Assembly: GCA_002840555.1 (NCBI GenBank)
Contig: PHBJ01000005.1
Location: 1 to 33,607, forward strand
Reading direction: 5' to 3'
Length of the DNA: 33,607 bases
From: Deltaproteobacteria bacterium HGW-Deltaproteobacteria-13
Lineage (GTDB): Bacteria; Desulfobacterota; Syntrophia; Syntrophales; Smithellaceae
The first letter of the stretch is position 1. The number at the start of each line of letters is the position of its first letter. Position numbers and translations under genes: made by a program. Below are positions 7,077 to 33,460 of the stretch, one piece after another. The notes beneath the pieces were generated by a model. That model did not search any database. It saw nothing but the letters and a program-made list of their open reading frames with translations, and had not been told where the DNA came from.

Positions 7077-9458
7077 CTATTTTCCCAAAATCAGTTCCAC
7101 AATCTTCGGAACAATTTCCTTGGCGGTTTTGCCCACTTCCAATGTAGGTCCCACGCAGGATGGACAACCGTATGCGCACGGACATTTTTCGATAAGGCTC
7201 AACGCCGCTGAAAGGAGATTGGCGTGTTCCCGGTAGAGCAATTCGGAAAAGCCGATGCCGCCGGGATAGGAATCAAAAATAAAAATGGTCGGATCGAACT
7301 CATCAATGCGGGCGGCTTCTTTGTTATCCGTTATAGCCGGTTTACCGTCATTGAAAGATGCGATGACGCGCCCGGTTTTCCCCTGGCTGACAAACCATTC
7401 ACCGCTTTTATCTCCTAAAGACCGGTCAATGTCATGCGTATCGGCCATGAGAAACATGGCGGACAAATGCTGCAGCGTATAAGCCAGCGCCGAAAGGCCG
7501 TCAATAATTTCCGCGGCGGTGAAGTTAAGTTTGCGCAGACGGTCGCGGGGAATGGTAAACCAGTAGCTCGTGGTGTGCATATCTTTTTCCGGCAGATTGA
7601 CATCACCGTAACCCAGATTCTCCGACGTGTAGAATTTTATCTTTTTATAGCCGACCACCTTGCGCACGACCTGAACTTCGCCATGCTCCACAATCGCTCC
7701 GGCATCCCGATGATTTTCAAAAGAGTCGATGACCCGCACGTTCGTATAGGTCATGGCGTCGGTGTAATAATCCGTATCGACCTTGCGCACGTAAGCTTTC
7801 TTCCTTTCCAGATCGAGTTTGTCCACATGATACTGCTCGGAGGCCAGCATATAAATGGCTCCATCGTGCACAGCGGTGAAGGCGCTGTCCCAATCGACTT
7901 CGGCAATAACCTTGTGGTTGCCCGCGTCGGTGGTATCGACCACGACAACATTTTCGGGATTGATCGCCCGGAGGCTTACCTCATCCGCCGGATAACTTTC
8001 CGCCGCCCAGTGCCAGCGGTCGTTCGAGCGGTGCAGCACGCCTTTTTCTTCCAGATACACCAGGAATTCTTCCAGATTCTCGCCGCCGAATTCCTCTCCT
8101 TTTTCAAAAGGCAGTTCAAAAGCCGCGCTCTTAATGTGATGCAGCAGGATCAGCAGATTGTCGGGATTGATGCGGCAGTGCTCCGGCGACAGCGCGAAGA
8201 AGTAATCGGGGTTTTCCATGATGAACTGATCCAGCGGATTGCTCCGCGCGATAAGAATTGCTAAAGAATGCCCCGAACGCCTGCCCGCGCGTCCGGCCTG
8301 CTGCCAGGTGCTGGCAATCGAACCGGGATAGCCGGCCATGATACAGGCTTCCAGATTGCCGATATCAATGCCCAGTTCCAGAGCATTGGTGCTGATCACG
8401 CCCATGACGTCGCGCGAGCGCAGGCCGCTTTCGATTTCGCGGCGCAGATTCGGAAGATAGCCGCCGCGATAGCCGGTAACAAAATGATCATCGACCGGTC
8501 TTGTTTTTACAAATTTATCTTTCAGGTATTTGGTCAGAACCTCAACATTCAGGCGGCTGGTGGCAAAAACAATGGTCTGAATATTGTTTTCGATCAGGTC
8601 GGAAGCGATCTTGCGCGCGGGTGTCATCGCGCTCTGGCGGATACCCAATTCGCGGTTGACGATAGGCGGGTTATAAAGAATAAATGTTTTGGCCGCCGTG
8701 GGTGCGCCGCTCTTATCCAGCAGGGCCACGGGCCGTTCCAGAATTTTTTCCGCATGTTCGCGCGGATTGGCGACCGTTGCCGAACAGCAGACAAAAACGG
8801 GATTGGCGCCATAAAAACGGCAGATCCGAATGAGTCTGCGAATGACATTGGCAAAGTGTGAACCGAAAATCCCGCGGTAAATATGCAGTTCGTCAATGAC
8901 AATGTATTTTAAATTCATAAAGAGCTTTTGCCACTTGGTGTGATGCGGCAAAATACCGGCGTGCAGCATGTCAGGGTTCGTTACCACAATGTGTCCCTGC
9001 CTGCGTATCGCCTGACGGGCATCGTCGGGCGTGTCGCCGTCATAGGTAAATGTTTTGATATCAGCTTTGAGGTCGCTAATCAGGCTGTGGACTTCATGCA
9101 TCTGATCCTGGGCCAGCGCCTTGGTGGGAAAAAGATAGAGGGCACGTGTTTCCGGTTCCTCCAGAATACTTTGCAGCACGGGCAGATTATAACAAAGGGT
9201 CTTGCCGCTCGCGGTGGGCGTCACCAGCACGACATCCTGGCCATTGCGGACAAATCGCACCGCCTGTGCCTGATGCTTGTAGAGCCTTTCCATGCCGCGC
9301 TTTTGTAAAACCGAAACCAACCGGGGATCCACCCATGAGGGGTAGTCTTCCCAGTCCCCCGCCCTGGCGGCAATTTCAACAACCGCCGCAGCGTTGTTAT
9401 TGAAACTTTTATTTTTCTTTAAGCGGGCGATCCATTCATCTAATGTCAGTTTAGCCAT
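7077..9458 (-). CDS. mrfA: MrfA-like (YprA) DEAD/DEAH-box DNA helicase with DUF1998 zinc-binding domain
   Basis: This 793-residue superfamily-2 helicase has Walker A TPTASGKT (80-87), DEAH-type box DELH (189-192), motif III SAT, and motif VI QQAGRAGRR in the second RecA domain. The C-terminal MrfA/DUF1998 region ends with four cysteines, C759, C761, C765 and C768 (CPCAYGCPSC), matching the metal-binding cysteines of B. subtilis MrfA. The family unwinds DNA 3'-5' in a UvrA-independent excision repair pathway for mitomycin adducts. The start is supported by AAGGGGAATT before the ATG. The long open frames on the opposite strand are shadows of this gene. Transcription probably continues into the mrfB-like gene. 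Confidence 0.92.
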   Translation of the reverse strand: MAKLTLDEWIARLKKNKSFNNNAAAVVEIAARAGDWEDYPSWVDPRLVSVLQKRGMERLYKHQAQAVRFVRNGQDVVLVTPTASGKTLCYNLPVLQSILEEPETRALYLFPTKALAQDQMHEVHSLISDLKADIKTFTYDGDTPDDARQAIRRQGHIVVTNPDMLHAGILPHHTKWQKLFMNLKYIVIDELHIYRGIFGSHFANVIRRLIRICRFYGANPVFVCCSATVANPREHAEKILERPVALLDKSGAPTAAKTFILYNPPIVNRELGIRQSAMTPARKIASDLIENNIQTIVFATSRLNVEVLTKYLKDKFVKTRPVDDHFVTGYRGGYLPNLRREIESGLRSRDVMGVISTNALELGIDIGNLEACIMAGYPGSIASTWQQAGRAGRRSGHSLAILIARSNPLDQFIMENPDYFFALSPEHCRINPDNLLILLHHIKSAAFELPFEKGEEFGGENLEEFLVYLEEKGVLHRSNDRWHWAAESYPADEVSLRAINPENVVVVDTTDAGNHKVIAEVDWDSAFTAVHDGAIYMLASEQYHVDKLDLERKKAYVRKVDTDYYTDAMTYTNVRVIDSFENHRDAGAIVEHGEVQVVRKVVGYKKIKFYTSENLGYGDVNLPEKDMHTTSYWFTIPRDRLRKLNFTAAEIIDGLSALAYTLQHLSAMFLMADTHDIDRSLGDKSGEWFVSQGKTGRVIASFNDGKPAITDNKEAARIDEFDPTIFIFDSYPGGIGFSELLYREHANLLSAALSLIEKCPCAYGCPSCVGPTLEVGKTAKEIVPKIVELILGK

Positions 9459-9807
9459 AATTCCCCTTATATCTTGTCATCCGGGAATGCATTATAGATA
9501 AAAAAAGAAATATCACAACAGAGAATTATAAAGAGCCTTTCAACAATTATATTGATGAGTTACTTCCTTGCGGTATCGATCTGTAAAAAAGATCGCCCTT
9601 TCTGCCCTTGCTTGACATGCAGGATCATTTCAATAAGAAAAAATATTACGGAAGTTATCTATTATTTTGAAACGCAAAGACGGCTCTCTTGAAAACCGCG
9701 AAACGATGATTAGTTTATAATTAAGGGACCATGACATTGCGGGGTCAAGCAGCGATTGGATATGATTAAAACAGCAAAGTCAGGAAGACGAAAGGAGGAA
9801 ATGAATT
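9459..9807. other. Intergenic region between mrfA-like and atpI-like genes
   Basis: This 349-base divergent region has no convincing gene. It holds a small hairpin (CGATCT-N7-AGATCG, 9575-9593), an isolated TTGACA near 9610 with only a poor -10 partner, and the AAAGGAGG ribosome binding site for the gene starting at 9808. No riboswitch could be matched. Confidence 0.5.
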
Positions 9808-10038
9808 ATGTCAATCATCGTCCGTAAGAGACGCCCGTTAACCTCCGATTCCTTCCGTGTAATAATCATGTTATCGGCCTGGGGCTTCGCGCTTGTCATT
9901 ACTTCTTTTCTGTTTCTCTGGCTGGGCCATCTTCTGGACGAATGGCTGGGCACCGGCCCGAAATTCATGCTGGGTTTGTTTTTGCTGGGCATCATAGGCA
10001 ACTTTATAGCAATATATCTTGAGAAGCGTAGGGAATAA
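9808..10038 (+). CDS. AtpI/AtpZ-like ATP synthase accessory membrane protein
   Basis: This 76-residue protein has two transmembrane helices (about 20-41 and 51-70). The connecting segment WLGHLLDEWLGTGPKFMLGLF is typical of the AtpI/AtpZ family: glycine-rich turns and an acidic residue between helices. Family members help assemble the F0 c-ring or carry Mg2+/Ca2+ near the ATP synthase. AAAGGAGG lies ten bases before the ATG. No atp structural gene follows within the window, so it is an orphan copy here. A 5'-truncated, nearly identical copy lies at 11198-11347. Confidence 0.8.
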   Translation: MSIIVRKRRPLTSDSFRVIIMLSAWGFALVITSFLFLWLGHLLDEWLGTGPKFMLGLFLLGIIGNFIAIYLEKRRE

Positions 10039-10217
10039 CCTAAGATCATTTACGACTGAATTTCGTTAGTTTTTATTTCCCATTGAGTTCGGCCGCGACC
10101 GCACCCGAACCCAATTGAAACATGCAAATAGCCATTCCCGGAATTCCGGCACGAGAACGCTCTTCCTAACCCGCCTGGACTGAAAGATAGTAACGCTATG
10201 TATAAACGCATTAAAGT

Positions 10218-10255
10218 AAAGCCAGAAGAAATTAATGTCATCTGCCTCTGGCTTT
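10218..10255 (-). terminator. Possible terminator after the outer-membrane barrel gene
   Basis: A nine-base perfect stem (AAAGCCAGA / TCTGGCTTT) with a 20-base loop lies 23 bases past the leftward stop codon and is followed on that strand by TTTACTTTAA. The long loop and broken T tract make it a moderate candidate. Confidence 0.45.
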
Positions 10256-10277
10256 ATTTAATACTTTTTCTATTCGT

Positions 10278-10907
10278 CTAAAAAGTGTATCTCAACCCGA
10301 AATAGACATTATGCGAACCGAATGTAGCCTTGGAACCTTCTAAATCGAGTTCTGGTGTAGCAAAGTACCTGTATTTTAAATCTAAGCTCAAATTTTGATT
10401 AATGGCATATGCCAAGCCAGCTCCCACCTGATAAGCAAAGATTGTGTCATTGAAACTATCAGTACCGCTGCCATTTCGTTGGTCAACATCCACTTTAACA
10501 TAGGCTACGCCAATTCCACCACTTATATACGGTGTCACTGGACTACTGTTTACAAAATCAATGTATCCGTTTACCAAGCCCGACAAGGCTGATGTGTTGC
10601 CTGATATAGAACCACCTCCGCAGCCACCTCCGTCACAAACGGTAGCCTTATCCATACTATTCCTCTGATATCCGATTTCTCCTTCCATCCTGAACATTCC
10701 AAAGTTGTACCCGCCGGCAAGAACACTTGCAATGCCAACAGTGTATTCTATTTTTCCTTTTACGCCATTATCTGTCAAATCACTCTCCGTCAAGTATGTG
10801 CCACCCAAGAGAGCGCTCATGTATGGCCCTTTTGTCGCACCGAAAGAAATCACTGGAATCATCAACAACATGAATAAACCGACAGAAACTGAAAAAGTCT
10901 TTTTCAT
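10278..10907 (-). CDS. Outer-membrane beta-barrel protein (OmpA/OmpW-like)
   Basis: This 209-residue protein begins with a signal peptide (MKKTFSVSVGLFMLLMIPVISFG, cleaved near ATKG). The rest has alternating amphipathic strands separated by Gly/Asn/Asp loops, including ISGGIGVAYVKVDV, YQVGAGLAYAINQ and LSLDLKYRYF, and ends in YFGLRYTF with the terminal Phe that the BAM machinery recognises. This predicts an eight-stranded barrel in the outer membrane. A loop contains CDGGGCGGGS, possibly disulphide-linked. The start at 10907 is preferred because GGAGG (10913-10917) lies five bases before it; an in-frame ATG four codons upstream overlaps that site. Ligand and function are unknown. Confidence 0.85.
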   Translation of the reverse strand: MKKTFSVSVGLFMLLMIPVISFGATKGPYMSALLGGTYLTESDLTDNGVKGKIEYTVGIASVLAGGYNFGMFRMEGEIGYQRNSMDKATVCDGGGCGGGSISGNTSALSGLVNGYIDFVNSSPVTPYISGGIGVAYVKVDVDQRNGSGTDSFNDTIFAYQVGAGLAYAINQNLSLDLKYRYFATPELDLEGSKATFGSHNVYFGLRYTF

Positions 10908-11197
10908 AACTACCTCCATTGTTTAGTTTGATTTTATAAAGATGATTCTGAAACGTTTATGACCATACACTTTTAATTTTGAATTTCAATAACTATTTCA
11001 CAATCGAATTTTATCATAAAAAAATATTACCCAAGAGGCAGGTAAAAAAGTAATCGTTGCCAATTTAAATATTGCATGAACGGATATAATTAGAAAAAAT
11101 ATGTTACAGGAAGTTAGCTATGATCCTGACTCTCATTGCAATGAAGTGTCAGGCCCCCGGAATTCCGATATTATGGTAATAAATATTAACGGTCTTT

Positions 11198-11347
11198 TTC
11201 ATATCGGCCTGGGGATTCGCGCTGGTGATTACTTCCTTTTTGTTTCTCTGGCTGGGTCACCTTCTGGATGAATGGCTGGGCACCGGCCCGAAATTCATGC
11301 TGGGTTTGTTTTTGCTGGGCATCATAGGCAACTTTATAGCAATATAT
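11198..11347 (+). pseudogene. 5'-truncated duplicate of the AtpI-like gene
   Basis: These 150 bases repeat the stretch at about 9877-10020. The last 78 or so bases (from GAATGGCTGGGCACC to GCAATATAT) are identical, and earlier ones differ mostly at third codon positions. The frame stays open (SAWGFALVITSFLF...) and runs on into unrelated residues to a stop near 11395, but the first 20 or so codons are missing: going upstream the frame meets TAA without an ATG/GTG/TTG start and ribosome binding site. It is read as a remnant of a tandem or ectopic partial duplication. Confidence 0.8.
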
Positions 11348-11429
11348 CGCCGGCCGAATTATCCCAAAAGCGAAGCGACATGGGAATATCCCTGATCGTC
11401 TCAATAATTAAGTCTTAGGCTCCCTGACT

Positions 11430-21586: not shown

Positions 21587-22255
21587 ATGTTGGACGTAAT
21601 TAAGAAAGCTGTAAAGAATGGACAAAAGAATTTGTCCGAATACGAATCAAGGCTGGTCATAGAATCAGCAGGCGTTTTTGTCGCGGCGGGGGTGCTTGCA
21701 AAAACCAGGGGTGAAGCGATTCAGGCAGCCGAGACAATGGGTTATCCCGTGGTGATGAAGGGATGCGCAGCCGAACTCGCCCACAAAACAGAAGCAGGCA
21801 TGGTCGCGCTCAACATCACGAATGCCGAAGAAGTGGCGCAGGTTTTTGACGACCTTGCAGGCAGGGCAAAAAATCTTGACGGCATACTTGTGGAAAAAAT
21901 GGTCAAAGGTTCACGCGAGTTTGTCATCGGTCTTACGCGTGATCCGCAGTTCGGACCATGCGTGATGTTCGGACTGGGCGGCATATTCACCGAAGCGTTG
22001 AAAGATGTGACTTTCCGGGTCGCACCGCTCACTCAGGAAGACGCCCTGGAAATGATCGACGAAATCAAGACGAAAAAATTGCTCGGTGCTTTCAGGGGAA
22101 GCCCGGCGGTGGATAGAAACGCCCTGGCCAAGGCTCTTGTCGGAGTGGGTGATTTGGGAATGAAGTACGATTCCATCGCCGAGATAGATATTAATCCGCT
22201 GATCATCTGCGGAGACAAACCGGTCGCCGTTGACGCGCTGGTTGTTTTGAAATAA
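21587..22255 (+). CDS. acdB: ADP-forming acyl-CoA synthetase, beta (ATP-grasp) subunit
   Basis: This 222-residue protein is an ATP-grasp_5 domain, the nucleotide-binding subunit of an ADP-forming acetate/acyl-CoA synthetase. Visible family motifs are MGYPVVMKG (lysine for ATP binding), the phosphohistidine loop AHKTEAGM with His66, DPQFGPCVMFGLGGIFTE, and EIDINPL near the end. It is the same type as the N-terminal domain of the fused enzyme at 2859-4943. AGGAG precedes the ATG. The alpha subunit gene follows after a 122-base gap filled by hairpin repeats. The acyl substrate is not known. Confidence 0.88.
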   Translation: MLDVIKKAVKNGQKNLSEYESRLVIESAGVFVAAGVLAKTRGEAIQAAETMGYPVVMKGCAAELAHKTEAGMVALNITNAEEVAQVFDDLAGRAKNLDGILVEKMVKGSREFVIGLTRDPQFGPCVMFGLGGIFTEALKDVTFRVAPLTQEDALEMIDEIKTKKLLGAFRGSPAVDRNALAKALVGVGDLGMKYDSIAEIDINPLIICGDKPVAVDALVVLK

Positions 22256-22377
22256 ATGGATTTCCCCCTTTTTAAAGGGGGATGAAAGGGGGATTTAAGA
22301 TTAATTCAAATCTCCCCTAACCCCTCTTTAGAAAAGAGGGGCATTATTCAGTGCGAACCCAAGAGGAGTTTTACTAA
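22256..22377. repeat. Hairpin-rich intergenic repeat (MITE/REP-like) between acdB and acdA
   Basis: Nearly the whole gap is made of C/G-run palindromes: TCCCCCTTT-N2-AAAGGGGGA (22263-22282), GGGGGATTT...AAATCTCCCC (about 22288-22316, one mismatch), and CCCCTCTTT-N3-AAAGAGGGG (22321-22341). This is the form of a dispersed intergenic repeat inserted in an operon; it would fold strongly in the mRNA and could uncouple expression of the two subunits. Confidence 0.75.
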
Positions 22378-23769
22378 ATGTTAGATTATTTTTTCAACCC
22401 AAAGAGCGTTGCTATTATCGGAGCGTCCGACAACAAAAACAAGGGCGGATATCAGATTATTAAAAATGTCATGGCTGGATTTCGCGGAAAAATTTATCCG
22501 GTCAATAAAAGTTACACCGAAATACTGGGAATTCCCTGTTACCCCGATGTGGCTTCGATACCCGGCAATATTGATCTTGCCATATACTTTATCCCTTCGA
22601 AGGAACTGCCGCATACGGTCAATGAATGCGCGAAAAAAGGCGTAAAGGGAATCATCATTGAATCCGGCGGATTCAACGAAGCCGGAGCGGAAGGCATAAA
22701 ACTTCAAAAGCATGCGCTGGAAAACGCGGCCAAAGCGGGCATCAGGTTGTGGGGCCCCAACTGCATGGGCTTCATTGACGGCAACAAAACTTATGTCTTT
22801 TCTTTTATCAATTCTCTGGTCTGGCCGGATGTGCTCAGAGGCGGCAACGTCGGTCTCATCGTTCAGAGCGGCATGCTCTCCGCCGGTTTTCTGCTCCATG
22901 CGCTGCAGGAAGGCGTCATGGGCGTGAGCAAGGTTTGCTCCATCGGCAACAAGTGCGACATTGATGAGAGCGATATTCTCGAATACATGATTAAAGACAA
23001 GGATACCGAAGTGATTGCCTGTTATCTCGAATCACTGGTGGACGGAAGAAAATTTGTAAACCTGGCGAAGAAAACAAATAAACCGGTCATCGTTCTGATG
23101 GGCGGCAGAAGTCAGGAAGGAGCAAAGGCGGCGCAAAGCCATACGGCGAGCCTTTCGGGAAATTATCGTGTAACAAGCGGCGCTTTCCGCCAGGCGGGAA
23201 TTATCGAAGTATTCGATCCGGCCGAGCTTACCGATATGGCGAGGGCTTTCGGGAAGAATATGCCTTTTTATCCTCAACCCCAAAAAGGCACGGCCATTCT
23301 CACCTTCTCCGGCGGCGCGGGCACCATTACGGTCGACCTGATGGAAGACTGCGGTCTGCCTCTGGCGAAACTTTCCCAAGGAACGCTTGATTCCGTCGCG
23401 GAACTTTTTCCTCCCTGGAATAAGCCCGACCATCCTCTTGATCTCTGGATTGCCATTGAACGCCACGGTTTTGAAAAAGTATTCCGAAATTCTCTTACCG
23501 CGGTCATCAACGATCCGGCGGTTGATTCGATTATCTTTCACAGTTACGCCACACCGTTAATCGGACAGGAATTTTTCGATGAACTTGCGGCGCTGATCAA
23601 AAAGCATAAAAAACCCGCTGTTTTGTGGGTGGAAGGAAGAAAGGATTTCGCCGAGCATTTAAGAGGCATTGCTGAAAATGCGGGGCTTCCCGCATTCCGC
23701 GAATTGAACCGCTGCGTCACTGTTTTGAATGGAATGAAACGTCATTTCATCAAAAAACCGATGGCCTGA
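22378..23769 (+). CDS. acdA: ADP-forming acyl-CoA synthetase, alpha subunit
   Basis: This 463-residue protein has an N-terminal CoA-binding Rossmann domain (FFNPKSVAIIGASDNKNKGG, residues 5-24), a succinyl-CoA-ligase-like domain with WGPNCMGFI and SIGNKCDIDESD, and the phosphohistidine motif SHTASLSG with His255 (SHTGSLAG in most relatives). With the beta subunit it completes an ADP-forming acyl-CoA synthetase. AGAGGAG lies 11-12 bases before the ATG. It is 12 bases upstream of the next gene on the same strand, so the three form an operon. Confidence 0.88.
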   Translation: MLDYFFNPKSVAIIGASDNKNKGGYQIIKNVMAGFRGKIYPVNKSYTEILGIPCYPDVASIPGNIDLAIYFIPSKELPHTVNECAKKGVKGIIIESGGFNEAGAEGIKLQKHALENAAKAGIRLWGPNCMGFIDGNKTYVFSFINSLVWPDVLRGGNVGLIVQSGMLSAGFLLHALQEGVMGVSKVCSIGNKCDIDESDILEYMIKDKDTEVIACYLESLVDGRKFVNLAKKTNKPVIVLMGGRSQEGAKAAQSHTASLSGNYRVTSGAFRQAGIIEVFDPAELTDMARAFGKNMPFYPQPQKGTAILTFSGGAGTITVDLMEDCGLPLAKLSQGTLDSVAELFPPWNKPDHPLDLWIAIERHGFEKVFRNSLTAVINDPAVDSIIFHSYATPLIGQEFFDELAALIKKHKKPAVLWVEGRKDFAEHLRGIAENAGLPAFRELNRCVTVLNGMKRHFIKKPMA

Positions 23770-24352: not shown

Positions 24353-25072
24353 TTATTCTTTAAAGGTTAAGCGGTAATCTTGATTCGGCAGGACGTTATC
24401 CAATCCTTTTATAAATTCTTTAATCGGTTCATTGTTTTTCAGATTGCGGATGATTTCAATAAATAGCGAAACGATTTCCCGGACTGTTTCCTCAGGTTTC
24501 GGGTCAATGTTATTTAAAAGTCTGCTGTTATAAAGTGTAATGACGCCGTGCAGAAAGCTCAACAGGATGATGATGGTTCTGTCTGTGTCAATGATCGCGA
24601 TTCCTCCGCTTTCCACATATTCCCGGGTTGTCTTTTGGGCCAATTCAAAAACGCGCATGGATGAATCGTATTCACGCGTAGCCAATTCCTCCATCGGCGT
24701 TCCGATGTAATCGCTGAATTTAGGCGTCGCCATGTTGAACATAAGATCATAGTAGTTGGGATGCGTGATTCCGAAGGAGACAAATTCATAGATAAGAAAA
24801 GCGACTTTCTCTTCCATGTTTTTGGCTCTTTCAAATGATTTGATAATGTTGTCATGAAGAATGATATAGCCGTACCTTCTCATCTCGATATTCAGCTCAT
24901 CCTTATTTGAGTAATAATTGTAGATGTTGGCGGCCGTCATTTTCATCCTGGAGGCAAGCTTTCTCATGGAAAGATTAGCGAATCCCTCTTTGGAAACCAT
25001 CGCAAAGGCAGTATCGAGAATCTTTCTTTTTATCTCTTCAATTTCAGTATCTTTCATCCGTAAACGCGGCAT
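24353..25072 (-). CDS. TetR-family transcriptional regulator
   Basis: This 239-residue protein has a TetR DNA-binding domain (about residues 12-62; FANLSMRKLASRMKMTAANIYNYYSNKDEL) and a helical ligand/dimer domain. It is divergent from the glycyl radical enzyme gene with 147 bases between the start codons. Each promoter in that gap carries one copy of TTAACAkTGTTwAATAAA over its spacer and -10. The ligand is unknown; TetR proteins near acyl-CoA enzymes often respond to acyl-CoA or hydrophobic compounds. GGAGAAG precedes the ATG; a second in-frame ATG five codons later has no better site. Confidence 0.9.
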   Translation of the reverse strand: MPRLRMKDTEIEEIKRKILDTAFAMVSKEGFANLSMRKLASRMKMTAANIYNYYSNKDELNIEMRRYGYIILHDNIIKSFERAKNMEEKVAFLIYEFVSFGITHPNYYDLMFNMATPKFSDYIGTPMEELATREYDSSMRVFELAQKTTREYVESGGIAIIDTDRTIIILLSFLHGVITLYNSRLLNNIDPKPEETVREIVSLFIEIIRNLKNNEPIKEFIKGLDNVLPNQDYRLTFKE

Positions 25073-25112
25073 TTCGCTTCTCCAAGTATCTCAAATATCT
25101 ATTTATTTTGAA

Positions 25113-25141
25113 TAATTAACATTGTTAAATAAATTTGTCAA
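25113..25141 (-). promoter_or_regulatory. tetR promoter with operator copy 1
   Basis: Minus-strand -35 TTGACA (25141-25136), 17-base spacer, -10 TAATTA (25118-25113). The operator candidate TTAACATTGTTAAATAAA (25116-25133) covers the spacer and half of the -10 and contains the perfect inverted repeat TTAAC-N3-GTTAA. This would allow autorepression. Confidence 0.72.
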
Positions 25142-25148
25142 ATTTTCC

Positions 25149-25178
25149 TTGACTTATTTCTTAACAGTGTTTAATAAA
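25149..25178 (+). promoter_or_regulatory. Glycyl radical enzyme promoter with operator copy 2
   Basis: Plus-strand -35 TTGACT (25149-25154), 17-base spacer, -10 TAATAA (25172-25177). The operator candidate TTAACAGTGTTTAATAAA (25161-25178) matches copy 1 at 16 of 18 bases and again covers the spacer and -10. The start codon is at 25220 with AAAGGAG upstream. Confidence 0.75.
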
Positions 25179-25219
25179 CAGCGTTAATAATACAATATCC
25201 ATCAAGTAAAGGAGAATTT

Positions 25220-28200
25220 ATGAGTACCCATTCATCAAATGTTCTATATCGAGAGACTCATTCTATTAATACTCCTGGTTTCACCGCGGCAAAACCTGTC
25301 TTGTTCGACTTTTCCAAGGATAAGACAATTTTTAAATACAATATCATACCGGGAATATTTTTAGGGTTTATTGCCGCATCTTACAATTATATTCCCTGGC
25401 TGAACAAGGAACTTAAAAATAGTGACGGTTATATCAATTACACTGTCGGAGTTGCCACGAAAGGCGGTGAAATCGCCCAGACCGTAGAAATCCATAACGG
25501 CAGGATGAGGGTTTTCCACGGCCTCCAAGAAAGTAACAATGCTAATTTTATTTTTGATAACTTGCAGGCCGCCGCCAGAATGTTGAACGGTGTTCCTTCC
25601 GATATCATGGAGCTGATGACAAAGAATGAAGTAATCATTGACGGCGACAGATCGGCCATGCTGTTTCTCGGATACCTTCTTTTAAAAGTCATATCGCCGG
25701 TCGTCAGAGTGAAGCTGATCTTTCTTGCCATGAAAGAAAAAGCTCAGAAGAAAAAATACACAGGCAAGATTGATATTGATTCGGATGTTTTGTCCGAAGA
25801 AATGAAAAAGAGAAAAAACCATCGAATCAAAGCGAAACAAGGAGAAGACCCCGGTGTTAAATTCCTTGATGATTCCTATCTCTCCGAGTACTCGATTGAA
25901 GACTTTCCCCGGGCAAAGGCCAGACATGATCAACAGATGAGCACACGTCCGGAGATCAGCGCGGAGCGGCCGAAGCTTCTCACCGAATGGTTCAGAAAAA
26001 ACGGATTTTACACCGACAACAAAGGCGACAAGTGGAATCCCATCATGAGGCAGGCTCTGGCTTTCAATTATCTCATGAGCAATAAAAGACCGGTGATTCA
26101 GGACAATAATCCATTACCGGGCTCAACCGGACCGGAAGACGTGCCTGTTCTGCTTTATCCCGATACCGAAGCATCAATATCTTTATGGGCCGAACTGGAC
26201 AGCATCAATAAACGCGTGCTGAATCCGCATGACATCAGCAGGCAAAACAAAAAAATATTAAAAGATATACTCCCCTTCTGGAGAGACAAAACTATCAGAT
26301 ACTGGGTGCTCAAAAATTTCAACTATCCCCTCTGTCTGAAAATGGATGACAGGACCGCGCTTTACTTCAACATGAAACTGGCCACCTTCTCTCATACCAT
26401 CCCGAATATTCCGAAAATCCTGAGCCAGGGTACATCGGGCGTCAAGACGGAGATCTACGACAGGATTGCCGAAGGCGGAAAATTTCTTTCCCCCGATCAG
26501 CTCACCACGCTGAAGGCCATGAAGATTACACTGGAAGGACTGGAGACCTACGCGCTTAATCTTGCCGCCGAAGCCCAAAGACTGGCCGGTATTGAAAAAG
26601 ACAAAACAAGAAAACAGGAACTCATCGAGATGGCCCAAATATGCCGTAAGGTTCCCATGAATCCCGCAGAGACTCTCCGGGAAGCTATAACAGCGGCATG
26701 GATTTTCCTTGTGGGCGTATGGATGGAGAACAATAACATATCCCTGTCACCCGGAAGGCTCGATCAGTATTTTCAGCCCTATTTTGAAATGGACATGGCA
26801 AAGATAACAAGTGACGAACAACGAAAAGTGTACATAAAAAAAGCCATTGAATTATCAGCTTTCCTTTTCCTGAGGATCGGACATCACCACATGGCTCTGC
26901 CCGACCTTGCCAATTATCTTTACAGCGGCACAAGAACAGACGCGGCCGTGACCCTCGGAGGCGTGAAGCCGGATGGTACCGACGCAGTGAACGATATGAC
27001 TTATATCTTTCTGAAGGTTACGGAAATGCTGGCCAATCAGGAGCCGAACATGAACGTCCGGTATCATCCCGGCACCAACAGCGATACTTACCTGAAGCGC
27101 ATCAGTCATGTGAATTACGTGGCATCGGGAACGCCGTCCATGCACAACGATATTCCCGTATTTGAATCTCTGCTGCAGCATGGTTACGATATCAGAGACA
27201 TCCGGGACTGGGGCGCGACGGGCTGCGTGGAACCGACCATGTCCGGAAAGCATACCGGACACACGAACGCTCTGTTCATGAACGCGCTGGCGGGCTTTGA
27301 AATGGCCATGAATAACGGTTACCATTCGCTGTTGAAGTGGCAGTTGGGACCCCAGACAGGCAGTATTGAAAACGGTGATTTTAAATCTTTCGATCAGTTC
27401 CTTGATGCTTATCGGACCCAGATGCAATTCCTGATCGACAATCACTGCGATTTGAATTTCTTCTGCGGCCAGGCTCATGCCGCAATACGGCCGCAGCCAT
27501 TCCTGAGCAGTGTCACCGAAGGCTGTATCGAAAAAGCGCTGGATAATACGCTGGGCGGAGCGAAATACAATTCATCGGGCAGTTCCAACGTCGGTCTGGC
27601 GGATATCACGGACTCCATGACGGCCATCAAGAAAATTGTGTTTGATGAAAAGATCACATCATTTCAGGAACTGAAAAAGGCGGTTGATACCGATTTTGGC
27701 GAAAATCCAAAACTGCATGCCATTGTGAAAAAGAAAATTCCTCTTTTCGGTTCGGGAAATGCCGAGGCGGTTGCAATGGCCAATCAAATGACAAAATTAA
27801 TCTGGAGCTGCTACGCGAAACATACGAATTTCCGGGGAGGCAAATATCTCACGGGCTTTTGGTCAACCTCATGGCACAGCGCCTTTGGAAATCTTTGCGG
27901 GACTCTGCCTTCAGGAAGACTCCGGGGGAAAGCCTTCACGCCCGGCTGTACGCCGCAGCCTCACGCGTCCAGAAGTATTCTCGACAACATGAGAGATGTT
28001 GCCAGGCTTGATCCGAAACAACTGGAAAACAATATTGCTTTCAACGTGAAGTATGTGCCGAACGCGAAGGATTCCGTCGAAAAAACGGTTGATACCATCT
28101 TCTCTTACATCAAGACCTACTTTAACGAAGGAGGGATGCAGCTTCAGTTAAATATGGTGGACTCGACAACTTTAAAGGATGCCATGATTCATCCCGAAAA

Positions 28201-28306
28201 TTACAGAAACCTGCTCGTCAGAATTTCGGGATATAGCGCCTACTTCGTTGAGCTGTCCAAAGAACTTCAGATCGAGCTGATAGAAAGATCTCAATTCCAG
28301 GGGTAG
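25220..28306 (+). CDS. Glycyl radical enzyme with N-terminal SCP2-like lipid-binding domain
   Basis: This 1028-residue protein is an anaerobic radical enzyme of the PFL/dehydratase superfamily. Residues about 220-1028 form the glycyl radical enzyme core: PEISAERPKLLTEWF, ENNNISLSPGRLDQYF, the active-site thiyl motif GCVEP with Cys669 and Glu671, and the radical motif RISGYSAYF with Gly1004. GCVEP is the form seen in glycerol/diol dehydratases and choline lyase rather than PFL (CC) or benzylsuccinate synthase. Residues about 45-165 look like an SCP2 sterol/lipid carrier domain (DGYINYTVGVATKGGEIAQTVEI), absent from characterised members, which are about 750-870 residues. A basic charged linker (170-220) joins the two. 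No activating radical-SAM enzyme is encoded in the window, so activation must occur in trans. Substrate unknown; a hydrophobic molecule is inferred. Confidence 0.9.
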   Translation: MSTHSSNVLYRETHSINTPGFTAAKPVLFDFSKDKTIFKYNIIPGIFLGFIAASYNYIPWLNKELKNSDGYINYTVGVATKGGEIAQTVEIHNGRMRVFHGLQESNNANFIFDNLQAAARMLNGVPSDIMELMTKNEVIIDGDRSAMLFLGYLLLKVISPVVRVKLIFLAMKEKAQKKKYTGKIDIDSDVLSEEMKKRKNHRIKAKQGEDPGVKFLDDSYLSEYSIEDFPRAKARHDQQMSTRPEISAERPKLLTEWFRKNGFYTDNKGDKWNPIMRQALAFNYLMSNKRPVIQDNNPLPGSTGPEDVPVLLYPDTEASISLWAELDSINKRVLNPHDISRQNKKILKDILPFWRDKTIRYWVLKNFNYPLCLKMDDRTALYFNMKLATFSHTIPNIPKILSQGTSGVKTEIYDRIAEGGKFLSPDQLTTLKAMKITLEGLETYALNLAAEAQRLAGIEKDKTRKQELIEMAQICRKVPMNPAETLREAITAAWIFLVGVWMENNNISLSPGRLDQYFQPYFEMDMAKITSDEQRKVYIKKAIELSAFLFLRIGHHHMALPDLANYLYSGTRTDAAVTLGGVKPDGTDAVNDMTYIFLKVTEMLANQEPNMNVRYHPGTNSDTYLKRISHVNYVASGTPSMHNDIPVFESLLQHGYDIRDIRDWGATGCVEPTMSGKHTGHTNALFMNALAGFEMAMNNGYHSLLKWQLGPQTGSIENGDFKSFDQFLDAYRTQMQFLIDNHCDLNFFCGQAHAAIRPQPFLSSVTEGCIEKALDNTLGGAKYNSSGSSNVGLADITDSMTAIKKIVFDEKITSFQELKKAVDTDFGENPKLHAIVKKKIPLFGSGNAEAVAMANQMTKLIWSCYAKHTNFRGGKYLTGFWSTSWHSAFGNLCGTLPSGRLRGKAFTPGCTPQPHASRSILDNMRDVARLDPKQLENNIAFNVKYVPNAKDSVEKTVDTIFSYIKTYFNEGGMQLQLNMVDSTTLKDAMIHPENYRNLLVRISGYSAYFVELSKELQIELIERSQFQG

Positions 28307-28666: not shown

Positions 28667-28918
28667 ATGAAAACAATCGCGGCCCAGGAAATTAAGCGCC
28701 GGGGAATTGGCGCCGTCGATGCGGCGCTTGCAGATGGCCCCGTACACATAATTCGTAATAATCAACCCAAGTATGTCGTTCTTTCTGAAAAAGATTATGA
28801 AAGCATTCTTAGCGACTTAGCTGAAGGACGTCTCGCCGCATCCGAAAACGATCTTAAAGCCGGTCGGATAAAACGTGGAAATTCCAAAAAACTAATGGCC
28901 GAACTACTTAAGAGTTAA
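28667..28918 (+). CDS. Phd/YefM-family antitoxin
   Basis: This 83-residue protein has a Phd/YefM-type start (MKTIAAQEIKRRGIGAVDAAL, DGPVHIIRNNQPKYVVLSEKDYESIL), the DNA-binding and dimer part, followed by an acidic/basic helical tail that would wrap the toxin (AEGRLAASENDLKAG). It lies four bases upstream of a RelE/ParE-type toxin gene on the same strand and is preceded by a palindromic promoter. Together they form a type II toxin-antitoxin module. Confidence 0.88.
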   Translation: MKTIAAQEIKRRGIGAVDAALADGPVHIIRNNQPKYVVLSEKDYESILSDLAEGRLAASENDLKAGRIKRGNSKKLMAELLKS

Positions 28919-28922
28919 CAAA

Positions 28923-29225
28923 ATGGTCGCCGGCAAATCGAAATCTGCTTATTCATTAGTCTGGACGGATACTTTTTCCCGAACTGCGCGAAAATTTTTA
29001 CGTCGTCATCCCGAATTAGCAGATTTATTTAAAAACGTATTGCATCTGCTCGAAACAGATCCGCAAACGCCTCAATTACATCTTCATCCCCTTAAGGGAC
29101 GGCATCAAGGAAAGTACGCAGTAAGGATAAACTACGAGTATCGTATAGTTTTACTTCTAAAAATTATTGATAGAGAAGTTATCGTTTTGGATGTTGGTTC
29201 ACACGACGAGGTTTATCATAATTAG
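28923..29225 (+). CDS. RelE/ParE-superfamily toxin
   Basis: This 100-residue basic protein has the RelE-fold pattern: WTDTFSRTARKFLRRHPELADLF, LLETDPQTPQLHLHPLKGRHQGKYAVRINYEYRIVL, and a final strand EVIVLDVGSHDEVY. The LKG...YAVRIN..YRI segment and the GSHDEVY end are typical of RelE/YafQ-like mRNA interferases that cut mRNA on the ribosome. The gene begins four bases after the antitoxin stop; no separate strong ribosome binding site is visible, so coupling is likely. Confidence 0.87.
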   Translation: MVAGKSKSAYSLVWTDTFSRTARKFLRRHPELADLFKNVLHLLETDPQTPQLHLHPLKGRHQGKYAVRINYEYRIVLLLKIIDREVIVLDVGSHDEVYHN

Positions 29226-29426: not shown

Positions 29427-32400
29427 TTATTCATCAAAGCTCTCCCGATCTCGAATAGATCGCTCTATGTTACGATCAGCTGTTTTTCTGAGATCTTCGT
29501 ATAGTCGATATGCCGGTGAGAATTGAGGGATTTCTTCCATTGCCTTTTCCGTCTCTTTTTTCATCTGGACATCCTGTGGAAATGGTTCTCCAGGAGTTCC
29601 AGAACGTGTTCCTGAAATTGTTGCGCCATATAAAGCACTCCATGCATCTGTTAATAGATCTTTACCGTATTGTTTAGCCTTATCCAAAAACCGGATGACG
29701 AATTGTCTGTTTTTGAAAACGAAATCATGTGGTCCTTCACGAAGGATATGTGAGATTACGCTTATATCGGTAGGTGTTGCTGTTTCTATCCATTCCCCCA
29801 TAAATTCCATTAACTCGGCATCATAGGGGCGAAACATAGCATCAAATAGTTCGCCCGCACGATGATTAAATAGGACATCATCTTCGCGTGACTTCATCCA
29901 TTCCGACACCTGCCTAAGAAGAGTTCTGCATTCTTGTGACTCACGGAATAAAAGTGGGACTTGACAATAAGGACCATAATTACATGGCCGATACTTCCAG
30001 TCATTAGTGCGTGCAGCGTGTTCTACACGATCCATAAAGAATTTAGCTACTTTGCGGGCATGATACTTTGATGCCTTAGATAAAAATTTCTCAATCCAAT
30101 AACCATCAATTTCTGACAAAGACATCAATTTTTTCAGGAAATAGTCAATATCCTCTTCAGTGAGCAATTGGAATGGAATTACACTTTCCTTTTGAAAGAG
30201 CATTAGCAAATCATCAGCAACATTATTTGATATTCCGATATCGACAAATTTGAGAAGATCAATCGCTAGCTGTTGATCTTTTTTTGCCAAAAGTCGTATA
30301 GCGCTAACTGCATTCATAATAACTCTTTGATCATTTGATGAAAGGACTTTTTTGAGAATGGCAATATCTTTTTCACCGTAATTTATAGCCTCAGCATTTA
30401 CGGCGGAATATCCATCACCTATCGCTGAATGCAAGTTATTTAAATTTGTTTCAAGGAGCTGAAAAACAAAATCAATTGCTTCATCGTGATTTTCGTTAAG
30501 AAGTTTTGACAGAGCCGTACCAGCAAAAGGTGCTGTTCTTGATTCATGATTTACAAGAGCATTTTGAATAGTTGCCCGTGCAAGAGGTAATGATGATTGA
30601 ATTAGTTGCCAGTAGAGTTTGTAGGGTGATGGGCTACCAGCAATATCTACCTCTAAAAGATTTTGCTCCAGGAAAATACGTAGTTGTTCTCCATCTGGGT
30701 AAACTGAAATAAGATCATTGGTAAGTTCATCAAGATACTTATCCCATGCTCGATCAGACCGTTTAATATCTCTTCTTATCAAGATTTGTCCATAACCATC
30801 TATGAAGGCTAGTTTCGTGCGAAATTCCAGTGAAGCGGGTAATGATTTGAGTATACGTTTTGCAATCAATGCTGTTTTTTCACCTGCATAATTTGCATGC
30901 CATGATACTGAACGTGCGATTTCGATTAGCACGACATGATTCAGGGTTTCGGATTTTATTTTATTTTCTATTTTTTCAAGTGTCTGAGAAAATTCTTTTG
31001 TCCATTCTTCTCTCGATGCGCCGATTATTGAATACTGAATGCTTTCTCTCAGAAACCGTGCGGCCTGTGTAGCAATCTTTGACTTTTGGTGTGAAAGTAA
31101 GTTTATTGTTTCATTAATGACTTTACAGCGCAGATCAGCAACGAATTTGACATTTACGCCAAATCGCCCAATGGATACAGTCCTGCCATTTGATTCAGTA
31201 GTATGACCTTCCGTTCTAAGGATACCTTCGAGCACATCAAAAGGTGAATATGCATATGTCCATGAATCGTCTTGCTCCAATAGAGAGAGCGCAAAGTTAA
31301 CAACTACTTCATTATATTCTTTTGGCTTATTGGGCTGAACTTCACAAAGTTCCGAGAGAATGCGAATAGCGTGTCCTGGTGTTTGATTGAGTTCTCTTTT
31401 ATCACACTTACCCAATTCCCACAGATATTCGCATGCACGTGGGAGATGCTCGAAGTTATATGCTGCATATTTGATGAGATTTGGTAAATCTTCAAGGTGT
31501 TTCCCTTCAGCGATTAGATGTTGTGCAAAATCCAATGCGCGAGTCGGCTGGTAATAAGCGACTGCAGTTATGGCTCGGATATGAGGGTCGGAATATTTTC
31601 TTTTTGGTTTTAACTTTCGCCATATACCATCTAATAATTGGCTATTGCGCGGATTACCATTGGTCAGTCGCCAATCGAGTTTTCCAAGATTTAGAAGGAC
31701 ATGATCGATTTGTAAATCATCTGCCGCATCGAATATTTTTTCTGCATAGCCGGTTGATTTTCTATTCAATCCGATACATCTGTCCTCGATAATGTAATCG
31801 GCAAGTAAATCTGGTGATAAACGGTACTTTCCACCACGTTTGAATAGTATCCCGGCATCTGCAATTAAGCGAATTAGTCGGTTGACATCGGTTGTACTTA
31901 TACCTTCCACTTTTTCAACGATCGACGCAATTGATTCATCTTCAGGATGAAAGGGTTGTAATAGTGCAAGGATATTTAGGAGCTTTTTAATTGAATCAGC
32001 ATCATTCTTATTTCCAATGTCTCCAGCAATAATATTGCGGAACCTTCCAAGAAGAGTTGAGCGAAAAGCCTCTTCATTCTTTGCAAACTCAAAGTGTATT
32101 TTTTCTTTCGCAACAATCTGCGCACCAATGCAAGTAAAAAGCGGGCAATCGATTGTTAATCGCGCAATATCTCTAGCTACACTTTCCGGACCGCCAAATT
32201 CTTTCAATACCTGAATTGCTAGTTCTGTCGATTGATCAAGGGTTAAAGGATTAAGTATTCTCTCAGAAATCAGATTCCCCATCAATGCAAAATTGCTTGC
32301 CAGTGCTTTGATTTTATCAAGTCCATAGGGTCGAAATGATAATAGAAGTTTTGTTTTATTTGATGGTACCGATACATATTGAAAGAGAAGTTGCAAATCA

Positions 32401-33431
32401 TCGCGATCATGAGCATCATCTACCACAAGCACCTTGTCGCTATCACCAAGATCTTCAAGGCTCTTTTTAGTAACTTCGTCTGTCGGTGATAGGAAGCGAA
32501 CTGTTACCCCTTTATGAATGCATTTAAATGATTCGATCGCATAGTGAAGCACGCGAGATTTACCACTACCGCCTGTTCCGACAAGAAGAACTGCCTGAAT
32601 TTTATTATTCGCTAAGCTATCTACTATCGCATGAGCGTCTTCATTTCTTCCAATGAGACGCCATGCATGACTAAATGCACGACGCACGTCCATAAAGGGC
32701 GCAAAGAATTCCTCTGATGTTTGCCAAGGTCCAGGCTCCGTTTCACCAAGCAAAGCTAAGCGTTGACCGCGAAAAAATATATCAACGAGTTTTTTCTGAT
32801 CATCTTTAGGCAATTGTCTAATATGTAAAGATATGTCCTCTTTGTCCCAGAGGTCCCATCCTTTATGTTTTTGTACTGCCTGACGAGATTTGGGGCTAGC
32901 AACACGACTAAGAAGAATAAATTTCTTTTTTGCTCTTCTCTTGAGATTTACTACTACCTTATCAACCTTATCTGCTCCAAATTTCTCCACACGTTTGCAC
33001 TGGAAAGCATAACAAGTCTTATCTGAAAAGATAGCATCAATATCTACACCATCCTGGGTATGCCCTTGTCCGCCCACACGATGTACATTCGCGTCTGGAT
33101 ATTTTCTTGATAAAAAGTACAGGCAAAAACGTTCGAAGCTTTCTGGATTAAAAGCATCAATCGGAAATGGTTGATCAAATGTTGCTACTGCTATCTTATA
33201 TGCTGTATATCCGGCAACAGTTAACAGTTCTTCTGGACTAGTCTTAAGAGCAGTTGCGAGTATTGATATCTGTTTGTCACGTGGACGAGAAAGGCCCAAT
33301 TCCCAGCGACTCACAGTTTGTTGAGTTGATTTAACTATCTTAGCTAGGTCTGATTGTTGCGTGATACCAGCCTGTTTTCTTAGTTTAACAAGTAAAGTGC
33401 CAAAAGCTTTATATGGTGCTTTTTCTTTCAT
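29427..33431 (-). CDS. HTH + Mrr-like nuclease + STAND NTPase + helical-repeat protein, probable anti-phage defence
   Basis: This protein has 1334 residues. Residues about 10-70 form an XRE-type helix-turn-helix (SDLAKIVKSTQQTVSRWELGLSRP). Residues about 95-200 match a PD-(D/E)XK Mrr-like nuclease: FERF (E100), GVDIDAIF (D130) and QCK (Q144, K146). A STAND-type NTPase follows: Walker A GTGGSGKS (285-292), Walker B KVLVVDDAHD (D338/D339) and an arginine sensor LLLSFRP (R367), then a winged-helix-like segment. From about 560 to the end are helical (HEAT/TPR-like) repeats that would sense a target. This nuclease-STAND-repeat order is that of Avs (AVAST) phage-defence proteins; the N-terminal HTH is unusual. 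The ATG at 33431 is preferred because AAGGA lies eight bases upstream; the one two codons earlier is too close. The gene is more AT-rich than its neighbours to the left and lies by a toxin-antitoxin pair, suggesting horizontal gain. Confidence 0.85.
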   Translation of the reverse strand: MKEKAPYKAFGTLLVKLRKQAGITQQSDLAKIVKSTQQTVSRWELGLSRPRDKQISILATALKTSPEELLTVAGYTAYKIAVATFDQPFPIDAFNPESFERFCLYFLSRKYPDANVHRVGGQGHTQDGVDIDAIFSDKTCYAFQCKRVEKFGADKVDKVVVNLKRRAKKKFILLSRVASPKSRQAVQKHKGWDLWDKEDISLHIRQLPKDDQKKLVDIFFRGQRLALLGETEPGPWQTSEEFFAPFMDVRRAFSHAWRLIGRNEDAHAIVDSLANNKIQAVLLVGTGGSGKSRVLHYAIESFKCIHKGVTVRFLSPTDEVTKKSLEDLGDSDKVLVVDDAHDRDDLQLLFQYVSVPSNKTKLLLSFRPYGLDKIKALASNFALMGNLISERILNPLTLDQSTELAIQVLKEFGGPESVARDIARLTIDCPLFTCIGAQIVAKEKIHFEFAKNEEAFRSTLLGRFRNIIAGDIGNKNDADSIKKLLNILALLQPFHPEDESIASIVEKVEGISTTDVNRLIRLIADAGILFKRGGKYRLSPDLLADYIIEDRCIGLNRKSTGYAEKIFDAADDLQIDHVLLNLGKLDWRLTNGNPRNSQLLDGIWRKLKPKRKYSDPHIRAITAVAYYQPTRALDFAQHLIAEGKHLEDLPNLIKYAAYNFEHLPRACEYLWELGKCDKRELNQTPGHAIRILSELCEVQPNKPKEYNEVVVNFALSLLEQDDSWTYAYSPFDVLEGILRTEGHTTESNGRTVSIGRFGVNVKFVADLRCKVINETINLLSHQKSKIATQAARFLRESIQYSIIGASREEWTKEFSQTLEKIENKIKSETLNHVVLIEIARSVSWHANYAGEKTALIAKRILKSLPASLEFRTKLAFIDGYGQILIRRDIKRSDRAWDKYLDELTNDLISVYPDGEQLRIFLEQNLLEVDIAGSPSPYKLYWQLIQSSLPLARATIQNALVNHESRTAPFAGTALSKLLNENHDEAIDFVFQLLETNLNNLHSAIGDGYSAVNAEAINYGEKDIAILKKVLSSNDQRVIMNAVSAIRLLAKKDQQLAIDLLKFVDIGISNNVADDLLMLFQKESVIPFQLLTEEDIDYFLKKLMSLSEIDGYWIEKFLSKASKYHARKVAKFFMDRVEHAARTNDWKYRPCNYGPYCQVPLLFRESQECRTLLRQVSEWMKSREDDVLFNHRAGELFDAMFRPYDAELMEFMGEWIETATPTDISVISHILREGPHDFVFKNRQFVIRFLDKAKQYGKDLLTDAWSALYGATISGTRSGTPGEPFPQDVQMKKETEKAMEEIPQFSPAYRLYEDLRKTADRNIERSIRDRESFDE

Positions 33432-33460
33432 ACGCATTATCCTTGTATGTATTTTCGCAC

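Follow-up and report, generated by a model that had tools for sequence, protein, structure and literature searches.

What would a glycyl radical enzyme (GRE) do with a lipid carrier? The GREs of known function considered here act on small soluble substrates, free hydrocarbons or aromatic acids, and to our knowledge none has been tied to a lipid-carrier module. The question is raised by a gene in a 33,607-nucleotide stretch of contig PHBJ01000005.1 from Deltaproteobacteria bacterium HGW-Deltaproteobacteria-13 (Smithellaceae), hereafter called the window, whose product carries an SCP2-like domain in front of a complete GRE core. In this work, we found that such long-form GREs make up a distinct, previously unnamed clade, and we think it probable, if by a narrow measure, that the window protein is a member that uses its SCP2 module in the elimination chemistry of amphiphilic lipids. 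The features of the gene, all on the + strand, are the following.

25220..28306, +, SCP2-fused GRE, 1028 aa, ATG start, stop codon included
25331..25699, +, SCP2-like lipid-carrier domain, residues 38-160 (PF02036 in relatives; fold matches of an AlphaFold model)
25700..25909, +, long helix, mildly basic linker and conserved DPGV-FL-D segment, residues 161-230
25940..27889, +, PFL-like core, residues 241-890 (PF02901)
26393..26395, +, His392, aligned to His164 of glycerol dehydratase
27221..27235, +, GCVEP motif, residues 668-672, with Cys669 and Glu671
28217..28237, +, glycyl radical motif VRISGYS (PF01228), with the Gly1004 codon at 28229-28231

The radical enzyme is readily recognised. In the 1028-aa protein, Pfam detects the PFL-like domain PF02901 at residues 241-890 (E 2.5e-151) and Gly_radical PF01228 at 906-1010 (E 2.8e-23), and the sequence features of the superfamily are present, namely a PFL-like barrel followed by a C-terminal Gly_radical domain, a Gly residue in an RxxGY motif and the active-site Cys669. 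The first-pass annotation of this DNA had described a GCVEP motif with Cys669 and Glu671 and an intact radical site; we located the former at residues 668-672 and the latter in VRISGY, and the conserved motifs predict a glycyl radical on Gly1004. The best-scoring PDB entries are the B12-independent glycerol dehydratase 1r8w and the propanediol dehydratase 5i2a (368 and 343 bits). In the solved relatives the best stretches start at residue 228 at the earliest, which leaves approximately 225 additional N-terminal residues, close to the 200 anticipated by that annotation. Most of the listed PDB relatives are 760-880 aa long, with the exception of one choline lyase chain of 1150 aa, whose length has another cause.

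The identity of the N-terminal extension emerged from the sequences of relatives and from predicted structure, whereas searches with the single sequence missed it. With the window sequence alone, Pfam SCP2 gave no match at E<=1, and the PDB search with its N-terminus returned weak unrelated matches only (best E 0.075); searching the PDB with a profile of the N-terminal domain brought up no SCP2 chain either. Among homologues gathered both within the genus and outside it, 22 of 23 N-terminal domains were aligned, and 13 of these 22 match PF02036 within a listing limit of E<=10, the best at E 1.7e-5. An NCBIfam scan of the same 22 domains yielded one weak UbiJ match. The AlphaFold model of residues 1-232, built from 7 sequences, has block pLDDT values of 72-88 over residues 41-120 and of 67-80 over 121-180. 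In Foldseek searches with this model, UbiJ-SCP2 and the Archaeoglobus SCP2 protein AF1534 rank first (probability 1.00, E down to 5e-5), and further SCP2 chains also reach a probability of 1.00. Over residues ~39-160, VIA-align matches SCP2 domains from alkylsulfatases, from SCP2-like-2 and from MFE-2, and its Z scores reach 10-12.9 with many SCP2 domains, including 12.9 with that of Pisa1, an alkylsulfatase, and 11.6 with that of MFE-2. Alkylsulfatases head the fold comparison, level with SCP2 chains, and we read these matches as probably reflecting the shared SCP2 fold only. In the predicted structure, residues ~38-160 thus have the SCP2 fold that had been proposed at the outset; this fold generally houses acyl chains in a tunnel. 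As for the linker described as basic, it exists, but it is only mildly so (13 Lys/Arg versus 8 Asp/Glu at residues 173-215).

Further indications that the two parts belong together come from unfused relatives. Eleven genomes have matches to the core only, and we fetched five of these sister loci (L142-L146). In all five, the GRE and activase genes flank a separate open reading frame (ORF) of ~145-180 residues, seen directly in L142, L143 and L146 and after listing overlapping ORFs in L144 and L145. The gene order is therefore GRE, SCP2, activase, with the GRE and the SCP2-like protein in two genes and the latter after the GRE gene rather than before it. A profile of the fused-family SCP2 domain scores all five ORFs at 29.6-42.2 bits, compared with 7.6 bits for the best of 2600 shuffles; this profile finds near kin only, as of two Pfam-positive lone SCP2 proteins in locus L050 it missed one and scored the other at 5.1 bits, the level of shuffles. 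Pfam SCP2 was run on four sister proteins: it matched one at E 0.00096, which falls under the model's cut-off, matched a second at 0.13 and missed the other two. The GREs of these loci are the nearest cores to the fused ones (512-592 bits). We regard the occurrence of the same two parts either fused or side by side as strong evidence that SCP2 works with the GRE as a real partner.

The fusion is not an isolated case. A family profile spanning the domain junction, built from 11 sequences, was run on 395 genomes of the phylum and matched 37 of them: 25 over both domains, 11 on the core side only, and G122, which has a long ORF with a diverged N-terminus that is SCP2-like by profile (E 3.8e-10). 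The long form is thus found in 26 of 395 genomes and in 8 families, with up to three copies per genome. These 25 genomes and the diverged one exceed chance and define a family. Of 17 genomes in the window's own genus, 12 gave matches extending into the N-terminal region, and the records of named relatives are Desulfobacteraceae, Desulfobacterales and Deltaproteobacteria metagenome-assembled genomes (MAGs). The family profile was applied within the phylum; a contig scan, which reaches close relatives only, gave four loci. The genome of the window itself (G000) encodes two SCP2-GRE enzymes, the second of which, at C6:116136, has its own activase. Two arrangements among the relatives may be mentioned here. 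The Desulfobacteraceae MAG BB40 (L036:1-10919) packs three SCP2-GRE genes into 11 kb, with two of them in tandem around an activase gene. In L059, the SCP2 part (8346-8936) and the GRE part (8815-11400, + strand) are in different overlapping frames, through a frameshift, an assembly error or gene fission.

A FastTree phylogeny of 72 sequences unites the long-form cores in one clade (support 1.0), to which the five unfused enzymes are sister. Together they are separated, again with support 1.0, from all nine reference GREs: glycerol dehydratase, two Pdu-type or glycyl radical proteins, PflD, YbiW, HypD, CutC, PflB and an Acinetobacter plasmid GRE. The window core shares 23-31% sequence identity with these references, and for glycerol dehydratase, the Pdu-type GRE, HypD and CutC the figure is 28-31%, which bears out the expectation that it falls outside the known small-substrate clades. 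Neither of the two findings that would have contradicted the first-pass annotation, an N-terminal domain of another fold or a core nested tightly in a clade with a known small hydrophilic substrate, was obtained. The distances between SCP2 domains track those between cores (rho 0.776, compared with 0.339 for the best of 500 permutations), and the fusion is therefore old and was inherited together with the core.

We then mapped onto glycerol dehydratase the active sites of the five sisters and of 47 long-family cores, 46 of which belong to long ORFs and one to the relative whose SCP2 part is in another frame. In glycerol dehydratase numbering, Cys433, Glu435 and Gly763 are invariant (47/47 and 5/5), and His is retained at the position of His164 by 40 of the 47 long-family cores and by all five sisters (45/52). 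Conversely, His281 and Asp447, which we take to be the residues that hold glycerol, are kept in none of the 47; the window protein has Ile507 and Asn683 in their places. All 52 cores have Trp in place of Tyr640, Tyr339 is also replaced, and position 446 is Thr in 47 of 47 long-family cores, as in CutC. With the catalytic residues kept and His281 and Asp447 lost, the parts needed for hydrogen abstraction and ketyl formation are intact, while the grip on glycerol is gone. The initial assignment of GCVEP to a dehydratase or lyase type is thereby weakened, although the motif itself is intact: judging from these alignments, GCVEP by itself is not what defines a dehydratase.

How does this family compare with known systems? 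It shares with glycerol and propanediol dehydratases (1r8w, 5i2a) the PFL-like barrel, the Cys-X-Glu motif, the Gly radical and the His164 equivalent, but it is only ~30% identical to them, differs at the His281, Asp447, Tyr339 and Tyr640 positions and belongs to another clade, and those enzymes have no SCP2 domain. HypD and CutC likewise have GRE lyase cores, and at two positions of its active site CutC has the Thr and Gly seen in most members; the two enzymes are in separate clades and also lack SCP2. In NCBIfam, the window protein scores 419.6 bits with the trans-4-hydroxy-L-proline dehydratase model NF043068 and 339.9 bits with the choline trimethylamine-lyase model TIGR04394, below the respective cut-offs of 1100 and 1050. 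On the carrier side, the SCP2 family, UbiJ SCP2 and AF1534 have the fold of residues ~38-160 in common with it, at 8-16% identity in the listed matches, whereas here the fold is fused to a GRE. A precedent is provided by the type III alkylsulfatases SdsA1, SdsAP and Pisa1, in which an SCP-2-like domain is coupled to an enzyme that works on alkyl chains (PMC5426288). Those proteins differ in that they are hydrolases of the metallo-beta-lactamase type, carry SCP2 at the C-terminus and use no radical. The nearest outer relatives of known context, plasmid GREs of Acinetobacter and Moraxella, have no annotated SCP2 gene adjoining and no informative pathway. These plasmid loci (L196 and L197) have a GRE and an activase in mostly aerobic genera, and they are in the tree group of the C8 GRE of the window genome. 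Searches of the open-access literature, which also took in ether lipids and long-chain diols, found no paper on a GRE with an SCP2 or sterol carrier domain; passages of PMC9172201, one of the hits, dealt with unrelated matters. This agrees with the earlier view that such a use is undescribed for GCVEP enzymes, without proving it.

We propose the following scheme for the cooperation of the two parts. A radical SAM activase would install the radical on Gly1004, presumably in trans for the window gene because none is encoded in the window; the activase expected in the genome was found, with TIGR02494 above cut-off at three places in G000, all of them outside the window. The SCP2 module might lift the fatty part of an amphiphilic substrate from the membrane or the cytosol and offer its polar head to the barrel, where the core would perform a 1,2-elimination. 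Cys669 would abstract a hydrogen from a hydroxyl-bearing carbon, Glu671 would deprotonate the same hydroxyl, and the resulting ketyl radical would expel the leaving group on the adjacent carbon with the assistance of His392. The product could be a long-chain aldehyde, ketone or alcohol, to be processed further by the aldehyde oxidoreductase (AOR), alcohol dehydrogenase, acyl-CoA ligase and beta-oxidation enzymes found near some relatives. We infer that long-chain 1,2-diols or alkylglycerols, undergoing C-O cleavage, would be the first-choice substrates because their products match these genes. In its most specific version, this scheme has SCP2 hand an alkylglycerol ether or a long-chain diol to the radical site, where the ketyl expels an alkoxide or a hydroxide, so that anaerobes could cleave the C-O bonds of lipids derived from membranes, including those of ethers, without oxygen; to this precise formulation we attach only a small likelihood.

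The gene neighbourhood bears on this proposal. Immediately upstream of the GRE gene are found:

24353..25072, -, TetR-type regulator (PF00440), divergent from the GRE gene
25073..25219, no strand, 147-bp intergenic region between the TetR and GRE genes, defined by coordinates and presumed to be a shared control region

We compared the neighbours within 8 kb of 50 long-form GRE genes with those in 40 windows, each 16 kb long, drawn from the same genomes as controls; as the marker genes were chosen from the very loci tested, the comparison is biased towards enrichment. A related TetR gene is present near 27 of the 50 genes and an activase gene near 25, compared with none of the 40 controls in both cases. 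Only these two associations are strong; AOR (p 0.013), glycerol kinase (p 0.013) and MlaE (p 0.026) are more weakly enriched. Six loci of the f48 family harbour AOR, MlaE and glycerol kinase genes, with an acyl-CoA ligase gene in five of them, and the unrelated locus L132 has a glycerol kinase as well (49% identical). In L050, the GRE gene is close to genes for AOR, two lone SCP2 proteins and an iron-containing alcohol dehydrogenase (Fe-ADH), in L046 and L048 to those for FadB and thiolase (in L048 by clustering), and in L111 to those for a FadR-type regulator and MaoC. This neighbourhood is compatible with a lipid role, without amounting to proof.

A number of observations weigh against an amphiphilic-lipid eliminase. 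The AOR, glycerol kinase and MlaE loci number seven, seven and six, and six of each come from one sub-clade. Short-chain dehydrogenase/reductase (SDR) genes are marginal (p 0.047), and acyl-CoA ligase, epimerase, FadB, thiolase and Fe-ADH genes are not enriched relative to the 40 control windows. This control removed or weakened acyl-CoA ligase and SDR neighbours as strong evidence for lipids. The window gene itself has no clear lipid operon and no adjoining activase gene, and the two sister-clade neighbour proteins that were scanned are not recognisable lipid genes. The loss of His281 and Asp447 means that a dehydratase reaction is not assured, and GCVE-type motifs are found in non-eliminase GREs too. 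Lastly, the full-length AlphaFold model, also built from 7 sequences, was poor (mean pLDDT 49) and was left unused, such that no pocket could be inspected. The hydrophobic substrate proposed in the first-pass annotation is thus supported circumstantially, by the SCP2 domain, the SCP2-like gene of the sisters and the lipid or aldehyde genes near some relatives, but no particular substrate is, and nothing points to the steroids that had been mentioned.

Could the substrate be small and hydrophilic after all, with SCP2 serving for membrane holding, dimerisation or shielding of the radical from oxygen? Several loci have no lipid gene within 8 kb and the active site keeps its polar catalytic residues, as such a role would have it, but every long-form member retains SCP2 and the sisters encode it in a gene of their own, and both the acyl-chain tunnel usual for the fold and the pairing in alkylsulfatases argue otherwise; we consider this explanation rather unlikely. 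The CutC-like Thr at position 446 raises another prospect, by analogy with choline lyase, of a C-N lyase acting on a long-chain amino alcohol resembling a sphingoid base, which would lose ammonia and yield a 3-hydroxy-aldehyde. A 3-hydroxyacyl product would be in keeping with the FadB and thiolase genes of L046 and L048, and in L128 a lipid kinase gene and a pyridoxal phosphate (PLP) decarboxylase-like gene lie downstream of the GRE gene. Nevertheless, the PLP protein matches decarboxylases, its PDB search listed no sphingosine-phosphate lyase, and the SDR cannot be assigned specifically to 3-ketosphinganine reductase, whose model came only 25th of 196. Sphingoid degradation in L128 was downgraded on account of the decarboxylase-like PLP protein, and the C-N lyase would be an improbable outcome.

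A biosynthetic role, in which SCP2 would hold an isoprenoid or another membrane lipid for modification, is suggested by the best Foldseek match, UbiJ-SCP2 being a ubiquinone-synthesis protein, and by a polyprenyl-synthetase-like gene, recognised by reading the sequence, near four loci of one sub-clade. We give this role a low probability, as no quinone genes adjoin the window gene or most of its relatives, and as the presence of up to three copies per genome and TetR control would better suit an inducible catabolic gene. As for addition to fumarate or decarboxylation of a hydrophobic substrate, in the manner of alkylsuccinate synthase or arylacetate decarboxylase, PDB relatives 8iof, 9o8u, 7e7l and 2y8n are so labelled and the family's own relatives are poorly typed. 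The tree contained no fumarate-adding reference; in the PDB search, MasD and TutD reach 202 and 155 bits compared with 368 for the best of the glycerol and diol dehydratases that lead the matches, and the eliminase-type His and Glu are kept, which makes this chemistry very improbable.

Other genes in these loci were noted in passing. The window has two ADP-forming acyl-CoA synthetases, one single-chain (2862-4943, - strand) and one split in two genes (21587-23769, + strand), the latter upstream of the TetR and GRE genes. Downstream, two small ORFs (28667-28915 and 28923-29222, + strand) resemble an antitoxin and a RelE-type toxin, and a 1336-aa protein (29427-33437, - strand) with a helix-turn-helix start, a restriction-nuclease-like stretch and a GGSGKS P-loop is a candidate defence protein; both assignments come from reading the sequence. 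Elsewhere in G000 (C3, near 39665-42904, corresponding to L043:9159-12461, - strand), a 1101-aa ORF combines an N-terminal radical SAM GRE activase with a C-terminal GRE and is possibly self-activating; open frames of 1067-1139 aa are found at the matching hits in relatives. Among the sister loci, three of five encode a member of an 819-aa protein family (L144:6515-8971, with relatives in L145 and L146) that has no Pfam match at E<=0.1.

The occurrence of fused and split forms makes the role of the SCP2 module in these GREs directly testable. If the members of this clade do act on amphiphilic lipids, they would bring a new class of substrates to radical enzymology, and their genes would provide a handle on the breakdown of long-chain diols and ether lipids in sulfate-reducing-type anaerobes.

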